In this document: positions 45,859 through 52,529 of the stretch, piece by piece
Numbering within the stretch: the first letter of the stretch is position 1
How the letters are laid out: the number at the start of each line of letters is the position of its first letter
From: Hydrogenobacter thermophilus TK-6
Lineage (GTDB): Bacteria; Aquificota; Aquificia; Aquificales; Aquificaceae
DNA length: 64,000 bases
NCBI RefSeq assembly: GCF_000010785.1
Contig: NC_013799.1
Location: forward strand, 1,550,001 to 1,614,000
Direction of reading: 5' to 3'
Notes under the pieces: generated by a model
What the model was told of the DNA's origin: nothing
Database searches by the model: none
Seen by the model: the letters and a program-made list of their open reading frames with translations, nothing else
Made by a program: the position numbers and the translations under genes

Positions 45859-46606
45859 TCTGGTTCTATCGGGTGGTGCGGCAAGAGGGATCGCTCACAT
45901 TGGTGTTATCAAAGCTCTTGTAGATATGGGGTTTGACATTCAGTCGGTGAGCGCAGTCAGTGCCGGTGCGCTGGTAGGAGCCTTCTTCTGCGCGGGATAT
46001 TCACCTGAGGAGATGATAAAGATAGTGAAATCTACTGAATGGATAAAGGTCTTGCGTCCCAAGGTGCCAAGATACGGGTTTTTCAGTCTTAGTAAGGCGG
46101 AGAAGTTTCTAAGGAGGTATTTAGAGGTGGAGCTTATAGAGGATTTGGGGAAAAGCCTATATATTGGGGTTTTGGACATAAAGAGCGGTAAGAGCTTTCA
46201 CCTTAGCAAGGGACAGCTTTATCCTATACTTCTGGGGAGCTGTGCGCTTCCCGGTGTTTTTGAGCCTATAAGGTACGGAGATTACATACTTATTGATGGT
46301 GGCGTCACCAACAACCTGCCTGTGGAACCACTTCTTAGCAAGGATGGGCTTTTGGTGGGAGTGGATGTAAACCCTACCAATGCGGTGGAGAAGGTCAGAA
46401 ATGTGTTTCATATAATAGCGCGAAGCTTTCTTCTGGCAGTGAGGTCCAATGTGGAAAAGAGGAAAGAGCTATGCCATGTTGTTATAGAACCAGAGCTTCA
46501 AAATTACTCAGTTATAGATATTTGGAAGGCTGAGGAGATTTATATGCTTGGCTACCAAAAAACCATAGAGGTGATGAAAAATTATGTCCAACAGACTTCT
46601 CGTTGA
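45848..46606 (+). CDS. Patatin-like phospholipase (RssA type)
   Basis: A 252-residue cytoplasmic or membrane-attached protein. It has the oxyanion loop LVLSGGAARGIAHIGVIKAL, the nucleophile region SVSAVSAGALVGAFF and the catalytic Asp in LIDGGVTNNLPV. The nucleophile motif is A-V-S-A-G rather than the usual G-x-S-x-G, so the first Gly is replaced by Ala while Ser and Asp remain. Activity is likely but not certain. It overlaps ispF by 11 nt and the MATE gene by 23 nt. Confidence 0.86.
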   Translation: MKVNLVLSGGAARGIAHIGVIKALVDMGFDIQSVSAVSAGALVGAFFCAGYSPEEMIKIVKSTEWIKVLRPKVPRYGFFSLSKAEKFLRRYLEVELIEDLGKSLYIGVLDIKSGKSFHLSKGQLYPILLGSCALPGVFEPIRYGDYILIDGGVTNNLPVEPLLSKDGLLVGVDVNPTNAVEKVRNVFHIIARSFLLAVRSNVEKRKELCHVVIEPELQNYSVIDIWKAEEIYMLGYQKTIEVMKNYVQQTSR

Positions 46607-47978
46607 TGCCGGCGAAAGCTGGCGATCCGTTGCCAAAAAAGTGACAAAACTTGCTATGCCCATAATACTCTCCAATCTACTTTACACCGTAGAGAGTGCC
46701 TTTTCCATAATACTGGTCTCTGGTCTTTCTGCCACTGCGGTGGCTGCAGTGGGCTACTCTGCCAGCATGCTATGGTTTATATACTCCCTCATGGCACTCT
46801 CTTATACAGGTACATCCGTTTTGGTTGCCCAGATGACGGGTGCAAGGAAAGATCCATCTCCTGCTCTGCTCTGGGGTTTAGTCATGTCCTTTTTTACAGC
46901 CCTGCCTCTTACCTTCGTAGGCACTCATCTGGTAGCCTTTCTCATGGAAAGGTTCGGTGCGTCCAAGGGTGTTGTCTTTCTGGCAAGAGAATATCTTGAC
47001 CCAATATTTGCCTTTATAACAGTAGGCTTTATAACCAACACCATATACGCAGCATACAACGGCTACGGAGACACAAAAACTCCCTTCAAAGTGGCTCTGA
47101 TTATGAATTTGGTTAACATATCAAGCGCATACCTTCTTATATACGGCAACTTGGGGTTTCCAAGACTTGAGACAAGAGGAGCAGGATGGGGCATAGCACT
47201 CTCTGAGGTGGTAGGGCTTTTGGCTTATGCATACTTATACCTGAGGAAGAAAAAGCCGTTTCCCATATCCATGTGCTTTAGCAGAGATGTTCTTGCCAAG
47301 ATGCTGCGTATAGGCACTCCTACAGCTCTTGAAAGAGCCTTTTCCAGCCTGTCTTTTAATATATTTGTAGGTTTTCTTGCCAGTTTTGGTGATAAGGTGC
47401 TGGCAGCTCATCAGATAGGTCTCAGAGTTGAGAGCGCCTCCTTTATGATAGGCTTTGGGTTTATGGTGGCAGCTACAACCCTTTCAGGTCAAAACTGGGG
47501 AGCTAAAAACTACGCCGGTCTACACCATGGTATAAGAATTACCGCCCACCTGACTGCTTTTGTGATGGGGCTTATGGGAGTGTTTTTGCTTGTCTTTCCT
47601 TATTACTTCTCCCTCATATTTACCAGAGATACTCAGGTTATAGAGTACGCAGTTTACTATCTGGTAATAGTTGCTCTGTCTCAGCCACAGATGGCATACG
47701 CCAGCATATACTCTGGAGCCTTAAAGGGAATGGGAAAAACTCACATACCTTTAGCGGTTAACTTAACATCCTTTTGGGTCTTTAGAATAATTCCATCTTA
47801 CTTGCTTCTAAAGTATTTTCACACACCACTGATCCCATGGATCTTTATGAGCGTTGAGATGACACTGAGGGCAATTATATTCTATTGGGCTTATAGAAGG
47901 CAGATAACTAGGTTCTTGAGTGCAAAAGTAGAAGAAGAGAGGTATATAAAAGCACCGCCTGAAGAAGTAAAAAAGTAA
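46584..47978 (+). CDS. MATE-family efflux transporter
   Basis: A 464-residue membrane protein with 12 spans in two similar halves. KLAMPIILSNLLYTVESAFSIILVSGLSATAVAAVGYSA is the MATE N-lobe start, and RIGTPTALERAFSSLSFNIFVGFLA begins the C-lobe. MATE pumps export organic cations or other drugs with H+ or Na+; the substrate is not predictable. The 3' end overlaps the convergent membrane protein gene by 71 nt. Confidence 0.9.
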   Translation: MSNRLLVDAGESWRSVAKKVTKLAMPIILSNLLYTVESAFSIILVSGLSATAVAAVGYSASMLWFIYSLMALSYTGTSVLVAQMTGARKDPSPALLWGLVMSFFTALPLTFVGTHLVAFLMERFGASKGVVFLAREYLDPIFAFITVGFITNTIYAAYNGYGDTKTPFKVALIMNLVNISSAYLLIYGNLGFPRLETRGAGWGIALSEVVGLLAYAYLYLRKKKPFPISMCFSRDVLAKMLRIGTPTALERAFSSLSFNIFVGFLASFGDKVLAAHQIGLRVESASFMIGFGFMVAATTLSGQNWGAKNYAGLHHGIRITAHLTAFVMGLMGVFLLVFPYYFSLIFTRDTQVIEYAVYYLVIVALSQPQMAYASIYSGALKGMGKTHIPLAVNLTSFWVFRIIPSYLLLKYFHTPLIPWIFMSVEMTLRAIIFYWAYRRQITRFLSAKVEEERYIKAPPEEVKK

Positions 47979-48828
47979 GCATTTTAAGAATAGCCAACTC
48001 AGGATGAACAAACCTCACCAAAAAACCAGCCAGGTTGTCAAGAAAAGAGAGAATAAAGAGGGATAAACCCAGCCAGAACCTCCCCTTGGAATTGATAAAC
48101 AAAAGCAGGTGAGCAACAGCCAAAGAGTAAAAAGCCATAGAAAGAAGGTGAGGATGAAAAACCTTAAACATTCCCTCAAAAGTCTTGGGTTTTGCAAAAA
48201 TCTGAGGATTGCCAAGATAATAACTTTTCACGCTCTCAAAGGTAAAACCCATTTTTGAAGAGAAAACCAGAAAGTTCACAAAGGTAAAGAGAAGCAAAAA
48301 CAGAGAAAATAGAAAAAGCACCAGCTTTATGTTGGATGTGCCAGATGCTTTATCCTCACCCATAAAAAGAAAAAAAATCAGCGTTAAAAAGAGAGCTATA
48401 CCACTTGATACCTGAAATAAGAAGAAAGATGTAAGCTTTATGTATATAAAGAAAGGAGATACATACAGGATAAAGAGGTCAGAAGCTATCTCCGTTAAAC
48501 CAAAGAGGGCAGATATTATTATAAGAGATACCTTCCACCTTTCCGAAAAGGAAGAGAGTAAAAAGAGGGAAAAGAGCAGGAGTACATAAAAGGCTTTTAG
48601 GAAAGTTTCTATGTGCATATCCTCCGAAAGCTGGGACAAAGATATCCTCTCTGGAAAACTTGGGTCTCCAAAAAAGTACTTAAAAACAGATGTATAGATA
48701 AAGCCGTACTTGCTATAAAAGAAAAACCAGGAACTCAGCCAGTATAGAAGCAAGAGAATCAAGAAAGCAAGCACAAGATAATAAAGAGGTCTGTTTTCTT
48801 TTATGTTGGCAGATATAAAAAATCTCAT
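47908..48828 (-). CDS. Internally duplicated eight-span membrane protein of unknown function
   Basis: A 306-residue, very hydrophobic protein. It is a tandem duplication of a four-span unit of about 150 residues: YSKYGFIYTSVFKYFFGDP (39-56) matches SSKMGFTFESVKSYYLGNP (190-208), and LFILYVSPFFIYIKLTSFFLFQ (118-139) matches GFLVRFVHPELAILKMLTFLLLQ (about 270-292). His72, His225/227 and His240 lie near membrane edges and could be heme or metal ligands. It is the last gene of the porin-diheme-FMN operon, with a 4-nt overlap to the FMN gene. I do not recognise the family. Confidence 0.7.
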   Translation of the reverse strand: MRFFISANIKENRPLYYLVLAFLILLLLYWLSSWFFFYSKYGFIYTSVFKYFFGDPSFPERISLSQLSEDMHIETFLKAFYVLLLFSLFLLSSFSERWKVSLIIISALFGLTEIASDLFILYVSPFFIYIKLTSFFLFQVSSGIALFLTLIFFLFMGEDKASGTSNIKLVLFLFSLFLLLFTFVNFLVFSSKMGFTFESVKSYYLGNPQIFAKPKTFEGMFKVFHPHLLSMAFYSLAVAHLLLFINSKGRFWLGLSLFILSFLDNLAGFLVRFVHPELAILKMLTFLLLQAVLLYTSLLLLLHSRT

Positions 48829-49379
48829 CTTTCACCTCCGAATATTACCTGCCACATGGCAAGAACTTTTCTTGTGTTGTCAGTTATTGCTCTTGATGTA
48901 AGGGTGGCTCCCGTCATGTTGGGGATGTCCCTTCTTAGCCTGAGAGTATCTGGACCAAGACTTTTACCCTTAAAGAGTTTTAGCCAGTTCTCATCAGGCA
49001 TGTATTCTAAAGGCTCATTGAAAGCAAGCACCTCCACTATATCTATCCTTCCGTCGGGGGTGAGCGTATAGAGTACCACCTCGGGATGAGTTCTGACTAC
49101 ATGGCTGTCTATATAGGCATAACCTACCACCGAGTCTCCTCTTTTGGCTATGTACCAGGAAACTAGCCTGCTGGAGAGCCTCACTCCAGAGAGCTTTTCT
49201 ATCTTTTCTACCTGCTGTTTTGAAAGCACTATGTTTTTTATCTCTATATTAGCACCGGGAAAAGCATCTTTCAAAGCTTGCTGTGGTGTTTTAAAGTCCC
49301 TTGCGGGACTGTCTATCCCGAAGGAGACAAAGCAGAAGAAGAGGAAGGTCAGAAAACACCACCTGCACATGCCTACCAT
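48825..49379 (-). CDS. FMN-binding domain protein, exported
   Basis: A 184-residue protein with a signal peptide or membrane anchor (residues about 1-21). The C-terminal NMTGATLTSRAITDNTRKV (residues 154-172) is the covalent flavinylation motif of NqrC/RnfG/NosR-type FMN-binding domains, with Thr159 the expected FMN acceptor. Upstream, VGYAYIDSHVVRTHPEVVLYTLTPDGRID is the domain core. It should hold FMN outside the cytoplasm. ApbE, the flavin transferase, is not in this window. It lies between the diheme lipoprotein and the duplicated membrane protein. Confidence 0.85.
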   Translation of the reverse strand: MVGMCRWCFLTFLFFCFVSFGIDSPARDFKTPQQALKDAFPGANIEIKNIVLSKQQVEKIEKLSGVRLSSRLVSWYIAKRGDSVVGYAYIDSHVVRTHPEVVLYTLTPDGRIDIVEVLAFNEPLEYMPDENWLKLFKGKSLGPDTLRLRRDIPNMTGATLTSRAITDNTRKVLAMWQVIFGGER

Positions 49380-49383
49380 AATT

Positions 49384-51048
49384 TTACCTTATAAGCAGGA
49401 GGGTTTTTATGACCATCCACAGGCCGGAGGTTTTGACTCCCGTCTCTTTTAAGTTAGTCAGCTTTTCTAAGGAGTTGCCACCTGAAGATACACCAAAGGG
49501 TCTGTCAAAAACATCCCTGCCAAACTTAAAGGCTTGAGCTTTAACAATTCTTATGTACTGCTTGTCTATGCCGTAAGCACGCTCAGCAGATGGCAGGAAA
49601 AGGTCTGGCTTTACATACCCATCTGTGTCCAGATAGTTAATCAAACTGGGATTGCTCAGGATGTTGTCCTCGGGTGATAGCACAGGGGATATCTTGGTGG
49701 GGTCTTTGCTGATGCGCGAGCGCACCTCTGCGTTGCTCCTAAAGTGGTCTCCCCCGTCCGTCATGGCAAAGTAAAGCTGATACTCCCCTTTTACGAAGGC
49801 AAGGAGTCTCTCAAGAGCAGGTCCTACGTTTGCCTCGTAGCTCCTGTAGTTCCAGTCTTTTATGCTCTTTGCGGTGAGGTTATAGTCCTGCTCCATCCAT
49901 CCACCAGCGCCGGGGACTTTACGCCAGTAGGTGAAGGTGCCATCCACAGTCCCGCCTATGCCTCCGTGGCAGGCTATGCAGAACTTCATCTCCTCCGCTG
50001 TCTGGGCTCTTAGCCTGCCGTTTTTGTCTTCTATAAAGCCTGCCATGAGCCAGTTTTTACTGTCATTAAAGACAAGCCCCCTGTCATAGAAGAACTTACC
50101 TTCTTCTTCCTCCTCTCCTTCATCTCTTGTGTCTGCGTAAGCTACCTTTTTCATGTATCGCATCTCCTTTATGCGCACAGACTTGTAGGATATGGTGTTT
50201 TCGGGCTCCAGGTAATAAATGGGGTGGGCAAACTCTGTGCCGGACGGGTACTGATAAACCACCACAGGAACATCCTTTGCATCACCCTCGTAATAGGAGG
50301 GCATGGTAAAGTCCCCCACCTCCGTACCTTTGCAAACCTCTCCCGGTTGGACACCCTTTACCGCACACTCCACTATAGCTAAGTTTTTCTTATAGGTGTT
50401 TATGTCTAGCTTTCCGTCCTTTTCCCTAAAGGGCTTGTCAAGCCTTATGAAGGTAGAATCTATCCGGCCGTTGGTGGGGAAAAAGCCGGGGAAGGGCTTC
50501 CACTTGAAGGCTCTCCATCCTGTGTGTTCTCCGGTAGATGGCTCTCTTACAAAGCCTTCGCTGTCTATGTTTATAAGAGCGTAGCTTCCGCTGTAGGTGT
50601 ATATGGGTGGAAGGTCTGGAAAGTAGTATAGCTCTCCCTTTCCTCTGTTGGCGTAAGCCTCTGTCCAGTTGTCCTGCTTTATGTAGCTTTTTACTTCCTC
50701 ATCAGAAGGCATGGGGACATCTTTCAGGGTCAGGTCCGGTCTTATTGCATTGAGCCAAGGGTTTCCTGCCTTTATGATGCTTTCGGGGAAGGAGTAGCTA
50801 AAGGTCAGGTCAAAGTCCGTCTTTTCGTTCATGTAGGGAGTATTTGCCTGCGTGTGGCACACATAGCAGGGGTTGGCTACAGCCTTTCCGTAGCGCAAAA
50901 CTCCTGTGTCCGTGTAACACTCAAGGGGAATGTTGGGCTCTGGGTTGGAAAAGCTGTAGGTGTCTATCATGGTCTTTTTCTTCTCTCCGCCTCCCCCTCC
51001 TCCACACGAAAAGATAAAGATGGCAGAAAGGAGCAAATACTTTTTCAT
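49384..51048 (-). CDS. Diheme c-type cytochrome lipoprotein
   Basis: A 554-residue protein. Signal peptide with lipobox I-F-S-C (Cys15) followed by six glycines, a flexible lipoprotein tether. Two heme c sites: CYVCH (61-65) and CIACH (357-361). Between and after them lie long regions without recognised domains. It should be anchored in the outer (or inner) membrane facing the periplasm or the outside. It sits 12 nt after the porin gene and 4 nt before the FMN gene. I know no named family with this spacing. Confidence 0.82.
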   Translation of the reverse strand: MKKYLLLSAIFIFSCGGGGGGEKKKTMIDTYSFSNPEPNIPLECYTDTGVLRYGKAVANPCYVCHTQANTPYMNEKTDFDLTFSYSFPESIIKAGNPWLNAIRPDLTLKDVPMPSDEEVKSYIKQDNWTEAYANRGKGELYYFPDLPPIYTYSGSYALINIDSEGFVREPSTGEHTGWRAFKWKPFPGFFPTNGRIDSTFIRLDKPFREKDGKLDINTYKKNLAIVECAVKGVQPGEVCKGTEVGDFTMPSYYEGDAKDVPVVVYQYPSGTEFAHPIYYLEPENTISYKSVRIKEMRYMKKVAYADTRDEGEEEEEGKFFYDRGLVFNDSKNWLMAGFIEDKNGRLRAQTAEEMKFCIACHGGIGGTVDGTFTYWRKVPGAGGWMEQDYNLTAKSIKDWNYRSYEANVGPALERLLAFVKGEYQLYFAMTDGGDHFRSNAEVRSRISKDPTKISPVLSPEDNILSNPSLINYLDTDGYVKPDLFLPSAERAYGIDKQYIRIVKAQAFKFGRDVFDRPFGVSSGGNSLEKLTNLKETGVKTSGLWMVIKTLLLIR

Positions 51049-51060
51049 CTTTTACCTCCT

Positions 51061-52419
51061 TCAGAACATCCAGCCAAGGGCAAGCCTGTAAATGTTTTGC
51101 TTTTTGGCATCTTTTGGGGAGTACCTCACATAGTCCGCCTTTAGAGCCACGAGGGGGTGGGGTTTGTACGAAAGACCCAAGTTAAAAACCTGCACCTTGT
51201 GCCCTTCTGGCTTTTCAAAGCCTTCTGGCACGCTGGCGTGGGTGTTGTAGTTCTCATAAATGCCAAATAGGTAAAGCTGTTGGTCAGAAACTCTGATAAG
51301 CCTAAATATATCATAAGCCACCTGAGTGTAAAAGCCGTAAAACTTCTTGGGGAAGGTGGTGCACTCTGCTTTGTCCCCCAGCTCGGTGCAGGCGGGATTG
51401 GTGCTTATGGCTTCTGAGACTTTGTCCGCTCCTGACACGCTCCCGTAGGCTCCCACAAATCTTATGTCCCAGGGACCGTACTGCCACCAAGCGTGAGGAG
51501 AAACCAGTGTGAGAGTGCCCAGCTTTTTGCCCTCATTGTTTTGGACACCACCCACAAAGGTGCTGGCGCCCACCTTGAGATTGTAAGGGAGGTTATAGTC
51601 CAGCCTGCCTGTGAAGGCTATTTGGTCTGAGGCAGCCTTAAAGCCATTCTGCCTAAAGCCCTTGAGAAGCTCACCACTTTCCACCTTTTCCCCCGCTTCC
51701 TCGTTGGGTTTCAGCCCGTTGGTTATGTAAGCCCTGTACTCAAGGTTTGCCAGTTTTCCGTAAACTCCAAAGCCCAGCTCTCTCCAGGTGGTGGGTATGA
51801 TGTTTCTCTCCAGGTAGGGTCTGTCCACGGACGGAAATGTGGGAGGCTCGTGGTACTCGTTTATTATGCCCACAGGAATAAGAAGAAGACCGCCTCTCAG
51901 TCCCAATTTTTCGTTAAAGCTGTAGTCCAGAAAGGCAAACTCTACTGCAGTTTCACCGCTTTCTTCCCCTCCCTCCACGAAGGCGTGTTCCCACTCAATT
52001 TCTGAGTTAAACTTTAGCTTTTCGTTAAAAGCGTATCCAAAGTAGAGTATTAGCCTTTTTGCATCTATAGTGTTTTTGGGTTTTTTGTCAGGGTTGTGGA
52101 CAAAGTGCACCTCACCGTAGCCACCTATGGAAACACCCCTCGGATTGAAGAGAGCCTTGGAAGCTGCAGGTCCTAAACCAGAGTAAGATTTAATCTCAAG
52201 TTGAGGCATGGCAATCTCAAGCCTGAGCTTCCTTATCTCTTCCTTGAGAACTTCCGTCTCCTGCCTTGTCTCTTCGGACTTTTTCTGCTCTTCCTTTAGC
52301 TTCTGAACCTCCTGCTGGAGAAGTCTTATCTGCTCTTCTAGCTGTTTTATGCGTTCCTCCGCAGGCTGGGCAAACACCAGGCTGGAAAAAAGGGCAGACA
52401 AAAGAAAGGCACGCCTCAT
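51061..52419 (-). CDS. Outer-membrane porin with N-terminal coiled coil
   Basis: A 452-residue protein with signal peptide MRRAFLLSALFSSLVFAQ, a coiled coil (EERIKQLEEQIRLLQQEVQK and onward, about residues 20-70), and a beta-barrel of alternating strands ending in the terminal aromatic signature YRLALGWMF. The GGYGEVHF and RLILYFGYAFNEKLKFNSEIEWEHAF strands resemble OprP/OprO-like porins. It is the first gene of the cytochrome/FMN operon. ATG 52417-52419 has SD AAGGAGG; the extension to 52452 is rejected. Substrate unknown. Confidence 0.85.
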   Translation of the reverse strand: MRRAFLLSALFSSLVFAQPAEERIKQLEEQIRLLQQEVQKLKEEQKKSEETRQETEVLKEEIRKLRLEIAMPQLEIKSYSGLGPAASKALFNPRGVSIGGYGEVHFVHNPDKKPKNTIDAKRLILYFGYAFNEKLKFNSEIEWEHAFVEGGEESGETAVEFAFLDYSFNEKLGLRGGLLLIPVGIINEYHEPPTFPSVDRPYLERNIIPTTWRELGFGVYGKLANLEYRAYITNGLKPNEEAGEKVESGELLKGFRQNGFKAASDQIAFTGRLDYNLPYNLKVGASTFVGGVQNNEGKKLGTLTLVSPHAWWQYGPWDIRFVGAYGSVSGADKVSEAISTNPACTELGDKAECTTFPKKFYGFYTQVAYDIFRLIRVSDQQLYLFGIYENYNTHASVPEGFEKPEGHKVQVFNLGLSYKPHPLVALKADYVRYSPKDAKKQNIYRLALGWMF

Positions 52420-52454
52420 GATTAACCTCCTTAAACTGAGATTTAGTGTCAATA

Positions 52455-52484
52455 ATCTTACGAGAAACTGAAATCAGATGTCAA
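52455..52484 (-). promoter_or_regulatory. Promoter of the porin-cytochrome-FMN operon
   Basis: On the minus strand TTGACA (52479-52484) and TAAGAT (52455-52460) with an 18-bp spacer, 36-65 bp before the porin ATG. A leader of about 30 nt with a good SD follows, so this operon, unlike many in the window, has a conventional 5' end. Confidence 0.55.
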
Positions 52485-52529
52485 TATGATAGAAATCAGG
52501 GAAGGTGTAGGGCTACCCGCGGACGCTCT

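Follow-up and report, generated by a model that had tools for sequence, protein, structure and literature searches.

A porin, a predicted flavinylated protein and a duplicated membrane protein form a module with a probable role in iron assimilation in Hydrogenobacter thermophilus and other bacteria

Introduction

ApbE-flavinylated systems outside the cytosol have been described with membrane cytochromes of the PepSY-like, MsrQ-like or DUF4405 types, and several of them are linked to iron assimilation, so that iron-linked flavinylated systems as such are already known (PMC8238504, PMC11334425). The locus described here shares with them a predicted ApbE substrate outside the cytosol and a membrane partner with conserved histidines, but this partner, of eight spans here and of four spans per chain in many relatives, belongs to a family outside these Pfam families. 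Neither a porin nor a partner of the 8-span/4-span type is found among the flavinylated systems in the two papers. P19-FTR1 iron uptake clusters, which occur mostly in Gram-positive bacteria, also contain an FMN-binding gene (PMC8238504). They resemble some relatives of this locus in joining an FMN_bind protein with FTR1 and in their link to iron assimilation, whereas no porin or 4-span protein is mentioned for them in that paper.

The porin has a probable counterpart in psp, a Fur-regulated porin of Geobacter metallireducens and Desulfuromonas reported in 2004; psp carries Fur boxes in tandem, and Aquifex aeolicus encodes a homologue of it (PMC545781, available text). The two porins probably belong to the same family, but the available text of PMC545781 describes no FMN protein or membrane partner for psp. 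The FMN protein shares the FMN_bind fold and a TGAT motif with RnfG and NqrC and weakly matches the G subunit of an Rnf complex (9eri_G, E 4.5e-4). In contrast to these subunits, it scores 21.5 with the rnfG model against a cut-off of 102, and its operon holds no Rnf or Nqr partner gene. A literature search that took in a minority of subscription papers retrieved no description of the membrane family or of its union with a porin and an FMN protein.

Results and Discussion

The window analyzed, a stretch of 64,000 nucleotides, comes from the single-contig genome (1,743,135 bases) of Hydrogenobacter thermophilus. It carries on the minus strand the four-gene operon that a preliminary description had proposed, and reanalysis confirmed both the gene content and the intergenic distances of 12, 4 and −4 nt. 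The first gene (51061 to 52419) encodes a 452-residue porin with an N-terminal coiled coil; several phyla conserve a gene of this family next to the FMN gene. It is followed by the genes for a diheme c lipoprotein of 554 residues (49384 to 51048), an exported FMN_bind protein of 184 residues (48825 to 49379) and an 8-span membrane protein of 306 residues (47908 to 48828). The 3′ end of the last gene overlaps that of a convergent MATE-family gene (46584 to 47978) by 71 bp, at 47908 to 47978. Upstream of the porin, the sequence TTGACA-18-TAAGAT (52455 to 52484, minus strand) is a fair match to the sigma-70 consensus, on which its assignment as a promoter is based. This candidate corresponds to the single clear promoter proposed earlier, but the segment from 52420 to 52485 is better described as promoter plus operator, since the coding sequence reaches only to 52419.

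Three of the four genes form a widespread module. The conserved core consists of the FMN protein and the membrane protein, usually with the porin and ApbE, and it was found in Aquificota, Campylobacterota, Dadabacteria/Desulfobacterota-type and Kryptonia genomes. Among 136 Aquificota genomes, 68 encode the FMN protein, 71 ApbE and 69 the membrane protein; outside Aquificota, 23 of the 298 genomes sampled from the Sulfurimonas phylum encode the FMN protein, as do 41 of the 58 sampled from the phylum around locus L134, to which a Dadabacteria genome also belongs. Of 148 FMN genes, a set that is partly redundant and includes some cut contigs, 141 have a membrane-protein gene within 5 kb, 106 the porin gene, 83 ApbE, 12 the diheme gene and 7 FTR1. 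The presence of the membrane-protein gene at 141 of these partly redundant 148 loci excludes a chance arrangement. The usual order is (ApbE)-porin-FMN-4TM(-4TM), with ApbE often convergent. Conserved co-occurrence across genera, which the preliminary description named as support for a system, holds for three genes, whereas the exact four-gene set, with the diheme gene between the porin and FMN genes, was found only in Hydrogenobacter and a few other Aquificota (G045, G050, G099 and G001). Acidobacteria were left out of the counts because the record "Acidobacteria bacterium J001" (L126/G138) appears to be the Aquificaceae genome G039, the ApbE contig number, coordinates and score being identical.

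The FMN_bind domain of the operon protein scores 24.9 bits against a Pfam cut-off of 22, and it is the only copy above the cut-off in the whole genome. The protein has a hydrophobic N-terminal segment and carries the motif N-M-T-G-A-T159, in agreement with the [ST]GA[ST] motif used to recognize exported FMN_bind proteins of ApbE-flavinylated systems. Residues kept in 26 aligned relatives are Y76, Y87, H93, V95 to T97, E122-P123, E125-Y126, N154 and the invariant G157-A158-T159, and FMN is predicted to be covalently bound to Thr159. The check for an apbE gene elsewhere in the genome, suggested in the preliminary description, revealed a single one about 250 kb from the FMN gene; in many relatives ApbE adjoins it. 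The two genes go together in Aquificota, where 64 of the 136 genomes have both and 61 have neither. A flavinylated system of the ApbE type that includes a membrane partner and a porin is well supported. In Sulfurimonas and a Helicobacteraceae genome (L162, L169 and L184), genes for relatives of the FMN protein lie divergently to a di-haem gene of the DHOR type (PF06537 for L162).

The duplication noticed earlier in the 8-span protein is genuine, as HHalign aligns the two halves with 99% probability (E 5e-18). Its AlphaFold2 model (pLDDT 93.8) presents eight long helices, and each half follows the layout TM1, short helix, TM2, TM3 and TM4. By the positive-inside rule the N terminus is predicted to be cytosolic, which would place H72 and H227 in the periplasmic portion of their helices, TM2 and TM6, respectively, with H240 lying 13 residues beyond H227, presumably toward the cytosolic side. 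In 19 fused 8-span proteins these three histidines show no variation, nor do K131 and K282. The protein thus has conserved histidines, whose binding of heme is a prediction. Membership in a characterized transporter family, which would have spoken against the electron path first proposed, was ruled out in that neither Pfam nor NCBIfam returned a match. No Pfam family, the PepSY-like, MsrQ-like and DUF4405 models included, matched the 8-span protein at E values up to 1, and none matched the single 4-span proteins at 0.01. PDB sequence profiles returned nothing useful, and PDB fold searches with the model gave no confident match, a result that does not prove a new fold.

The repeat occurs in three forms: as a single 4-span gene in Dadabacteria, Desulfobacterota and Geopsychrobacter, as a pair of neighboring 4-span genes in Hydrogenothermaceae, in Campylobacterota and in a single Nitrospinae genome, and as the fused 8-span protein in Aquificaceae and Kryptonia. 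Single-gene proteins (n = 5) keep three histidines, equivalent to positions 225, 227 and 240. In split pairs (n = 21), the first copy retains only the equivalent of 225, which in the half-to-half alignment corresponds to H72 of the 8-span protein, and the second retains those of 227 and 240. Such complementary loss is expected if the residues cooperate across a dimer interface, and on this evolutionary argument the histidines of the 4-span repeats would act together across it. In some Campylobacterota (L185, L188, L191 and L201), the two 4-span genes are followed by a gene for a protein of 366 to 367 residues with five CxxCH motifs.

The porin promoter of the window holds two near-identical operator copies 32 bp apart on the minus strand. 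The first, ATTGACATCTGATTTCAGTTT (52465 to 52485), is Fur-family-like, overlaps the −35 hexamer TTGACA and has no mismatch to the motif common to the porin promoters of related genera. The second, ATTGACACTAAATCTCAGTTT (52433 to 52453), lies directly 5′ of the porin ribosome-binding site and has three mismatches to the Aquificota palindrome ATTGAGATTnAATCTCAAT. This palindrome, a candidate variant of the Fur box, precedes the module in 20 of 32 Aquificota promoters and in 5 of 86 controls (at most three mismatches to the 17-base core), the motif having been derived from some of the promoters in which it was then counted. The classical Fur box TGATAATnATTATCA is found in 16 of 18 module promoters of Campylobacterota and in none of 60 controls (at most two mismatches). 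In the Dadabacteria/Desulfobacterota set, 14 of 20 module promoters and 6 of 67 controls carry a delta-type box (WTGAAAATnATTTTCAW, at most three mismatches; consensus from the available text of PMC545781). All three comparisons count genomes that are related to each other.

The full palindrome, allowing three mismatches, occurs at four places in the genome and its reversed control pattern at none. These are the operon promoter, the interior of the porin gene, where the copy is possibly due to chance, and two upstream regions, that of a DUF2325 gene (219393) and that of a gene for an outer-membrane protein (779546). Apart from the module, the palindrome in Aquificota is carried by feoA, by DUF2325 genes and by small genes next to the module. 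The copy before the DUF2325 gene (PF10087) is near perfect (L230; genome 219393 to 219411), and in G045 and G050 DUF2325 genes with similar boxes lie directly upstream of the porin. From the palindromes and this position, DUF2325 may share the regulon of the module. The remaining copy (L239; genome 779546 to 779564) is located 26 bp upstream of a gene for a 214-residue outer-membrane-like protein, a homologue of which (29% identity, E 1e-8) is encoded between feoA and the module in Sulfurihydrogenibium.

No iron transporter gene occurs within the 64,000-nt window, and feoAB or FTR1 adjoins the module in relatives. In Sulfurihydrogenibium (L242 and L243), feoB-feoA carries the Aquificota palindrome and is divergent from the adjoining module. 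The FTR1 iron permease adjoins it at seven Dadabacteria-type loci (L214, L218 to L221, L224 and L225). At L214 and L218 to L221 the permease is divergent from the module. That of L218 is fused to a cytochrome c domain recognized by Pfam; those of L214 and L219 to L221 match the same profile, have a similar length and contain one CxxCH each, and they appear to share the fusion. As FTR1 is absent from all 136 Aquificota genomes, it was ruled out as the transporter in Hydrogenobacter thermophilus. In the genomes of about 1 Mb that contain L224 and L225, a 116-residue secreted protein of unassigned family is encoded between the 4-span gene and FTR1. At L126, FbpABC-like ABC transporter genes, whose substrate the models leave unsettled, are directly upstream of the FMN and 8TM genes.

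The diheme lipoprotein has a lipobox-like FSC and the heme motifs CYVCH and CIACH, both invariant in 14 relatives. It is encoded in 25 of the 136 Aquificota genomes, all of which also encode the FMN protein. Separate occurrence of the genes in relatives, which was to refute the first proposal, is thus seen in part: the FMN and membrane genes mostly stay together, but the diheme gene is often absent or lies elsewhere, several times with its own porin copy. These detached genes mostly keep the upstream palindrome (L069, L073, L077 and L082). In some Campylobacterota (L151, L153 and L159), a MauG/CCP-type diheme protein (PF03150) fills the slot between porin and FMN protein. A diheme c partner is therefore optional, and the module apparently acquired one on more than one occasion. 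Its low frequency in Aquificota and its frequent location elsewhere led to its rejection as a core subunit. The structure model is poor (pLDDT 57.7), and cytochrome P460 and cytochrome c′-beta chains recur among its weak Foldseek matches; this agrees with a sub-threshold Pfam P460 match and serves as a lead only.

The gene module, the flavinylation motif with ApbE, the duplication, the operators and the iron-transporter neighbors of relatives are read from the sequences themselves. We consider it probable that the module is a periplasmic ferric reductase for iron assimilation, controlled by a Fur-family regulator and equipped with its own porin, that feeds Fe(II) uptake. Ferric iron, free or in small complexes, would come in through the porin. 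The 8-span protein may draw electrons from the quinol pool, because it has no cytosolic NADH domain; these would probably cross the membrane through a heme b ligated across both repeats by H72 and H227 and be handed to the FMN that the periplasmic protein is predicted to bind covalently. The FMN would reduce Fe(III) to Fe(II), which would enter by Feo or, in other phyla, by FTR1. In the minority of Aquificota that have it, the diheme lipoprotein could be an extra relay or a metal-binding terminal component. The heme or quinol site, the direction of electron flow, the ferric substrate, the diheme role and the identity of the regulator in Aquificota are in this sense putative.

A broader proposal, to which we give even chances, is that the 4-span repeat, whether single, tandem or fused, constitutes an undescribed class of transmembrane electron carriers for flavinylated proteins. 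An ancestral homodimer would have given rise to a heterodimer and then, by fusion, to a pseudodimer, the repeats losing heme-ligating histidines in a complementary way. Together with the porin, the class would serve Fur-controlled reductive iron uptake across several phyla, among them Dadabacteria-type bacteria whose genomes measure about 1 Mb. With this family, the known flavinylated systems would gain a further membrane partner, one that operators and neighbors tie to iron supply in vent, hot-spring and open-ocean bacteria. If true, a widespread group of hypothetical proteins would acquire a function, and the retention of apbE in many Aquificota and Sulfurimonas genomes would be explained.

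Of the functions first listed for the operon, uptake linked to reduction is thus favored, and the iron-type operators and the feoAB and FTR1 neighbors speak for a role in iron assimilation over respiration of metals or sulfur compounds. A dissimilatory or extracellular route, leading from quinol by way of the 8-span protein, FMN, the diheme lipoprotein and the porin to an outside acceptor for respiration, is unlikely, even though a heme c lipoprotein and a porin share the operon here and pentaheme or MauG-type cytochromes adjoin the module in some Campylobacterota. Most related modules are without any cytochrome, no constant pairing of a multiheme cytochrome with the porin was found, and the lipoprotein here has two hemes. 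Moreover, the module is retained in Dadabacteria-type genomes of about 1 Mb, and a coiled-coil porin of 452 residues seems too small to hold a cytochrome. With cytochromes optional and operators of the iron type, a respiratory conduit was rejected as the main reading.

Reductive handling of another metal, or of several, is quite improbable as the general role, given the canonical Fur boxes and the iron-specific neighbors FeoAB and FTR1, but manganese or copper is a possible substrate in some lineages. In Sulfurimonas an MntP-like gene lies beside the module, after the 4-span genes; in some Campylobacterota the porin-FMN gap holds the gene for a MauG-like protein with a sub-cut-off match to the MbnH family; and in Methylocystis a copper oxidase is encoded near a distant FMN_bind relative. 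Inward flow, with a ferroxidase that oxidizes periplasmic Fe(II), delivers the electrons to the quinone pool and is coupled to permease uptake, is very improbable: FTR1 permeases elsewhere pair with ferroxidases and the cytochrome c-fused FTR1 of L218 lies beside the module, but the feoAB neighbors require Fe(II) and covalent FMN of this kind is usually a low-potential electron donor.

Searches of plasmids retrieved only distant FMN_bind relatives and diheme homologues of Pseudoalteromonas. One diheme relative of Pseudoalteromonas (L088, 4869 to 6542) is flanked on one side by a PhoX phosphatase gene and on the other by a convergent cluster of PepSY-type membrane genes. The Hydrogenobacter thermophilus genome itself contains, at G000:C1:199041-199316, a partial N-terminal copy of the diheme gene with 44% identity and a stop.
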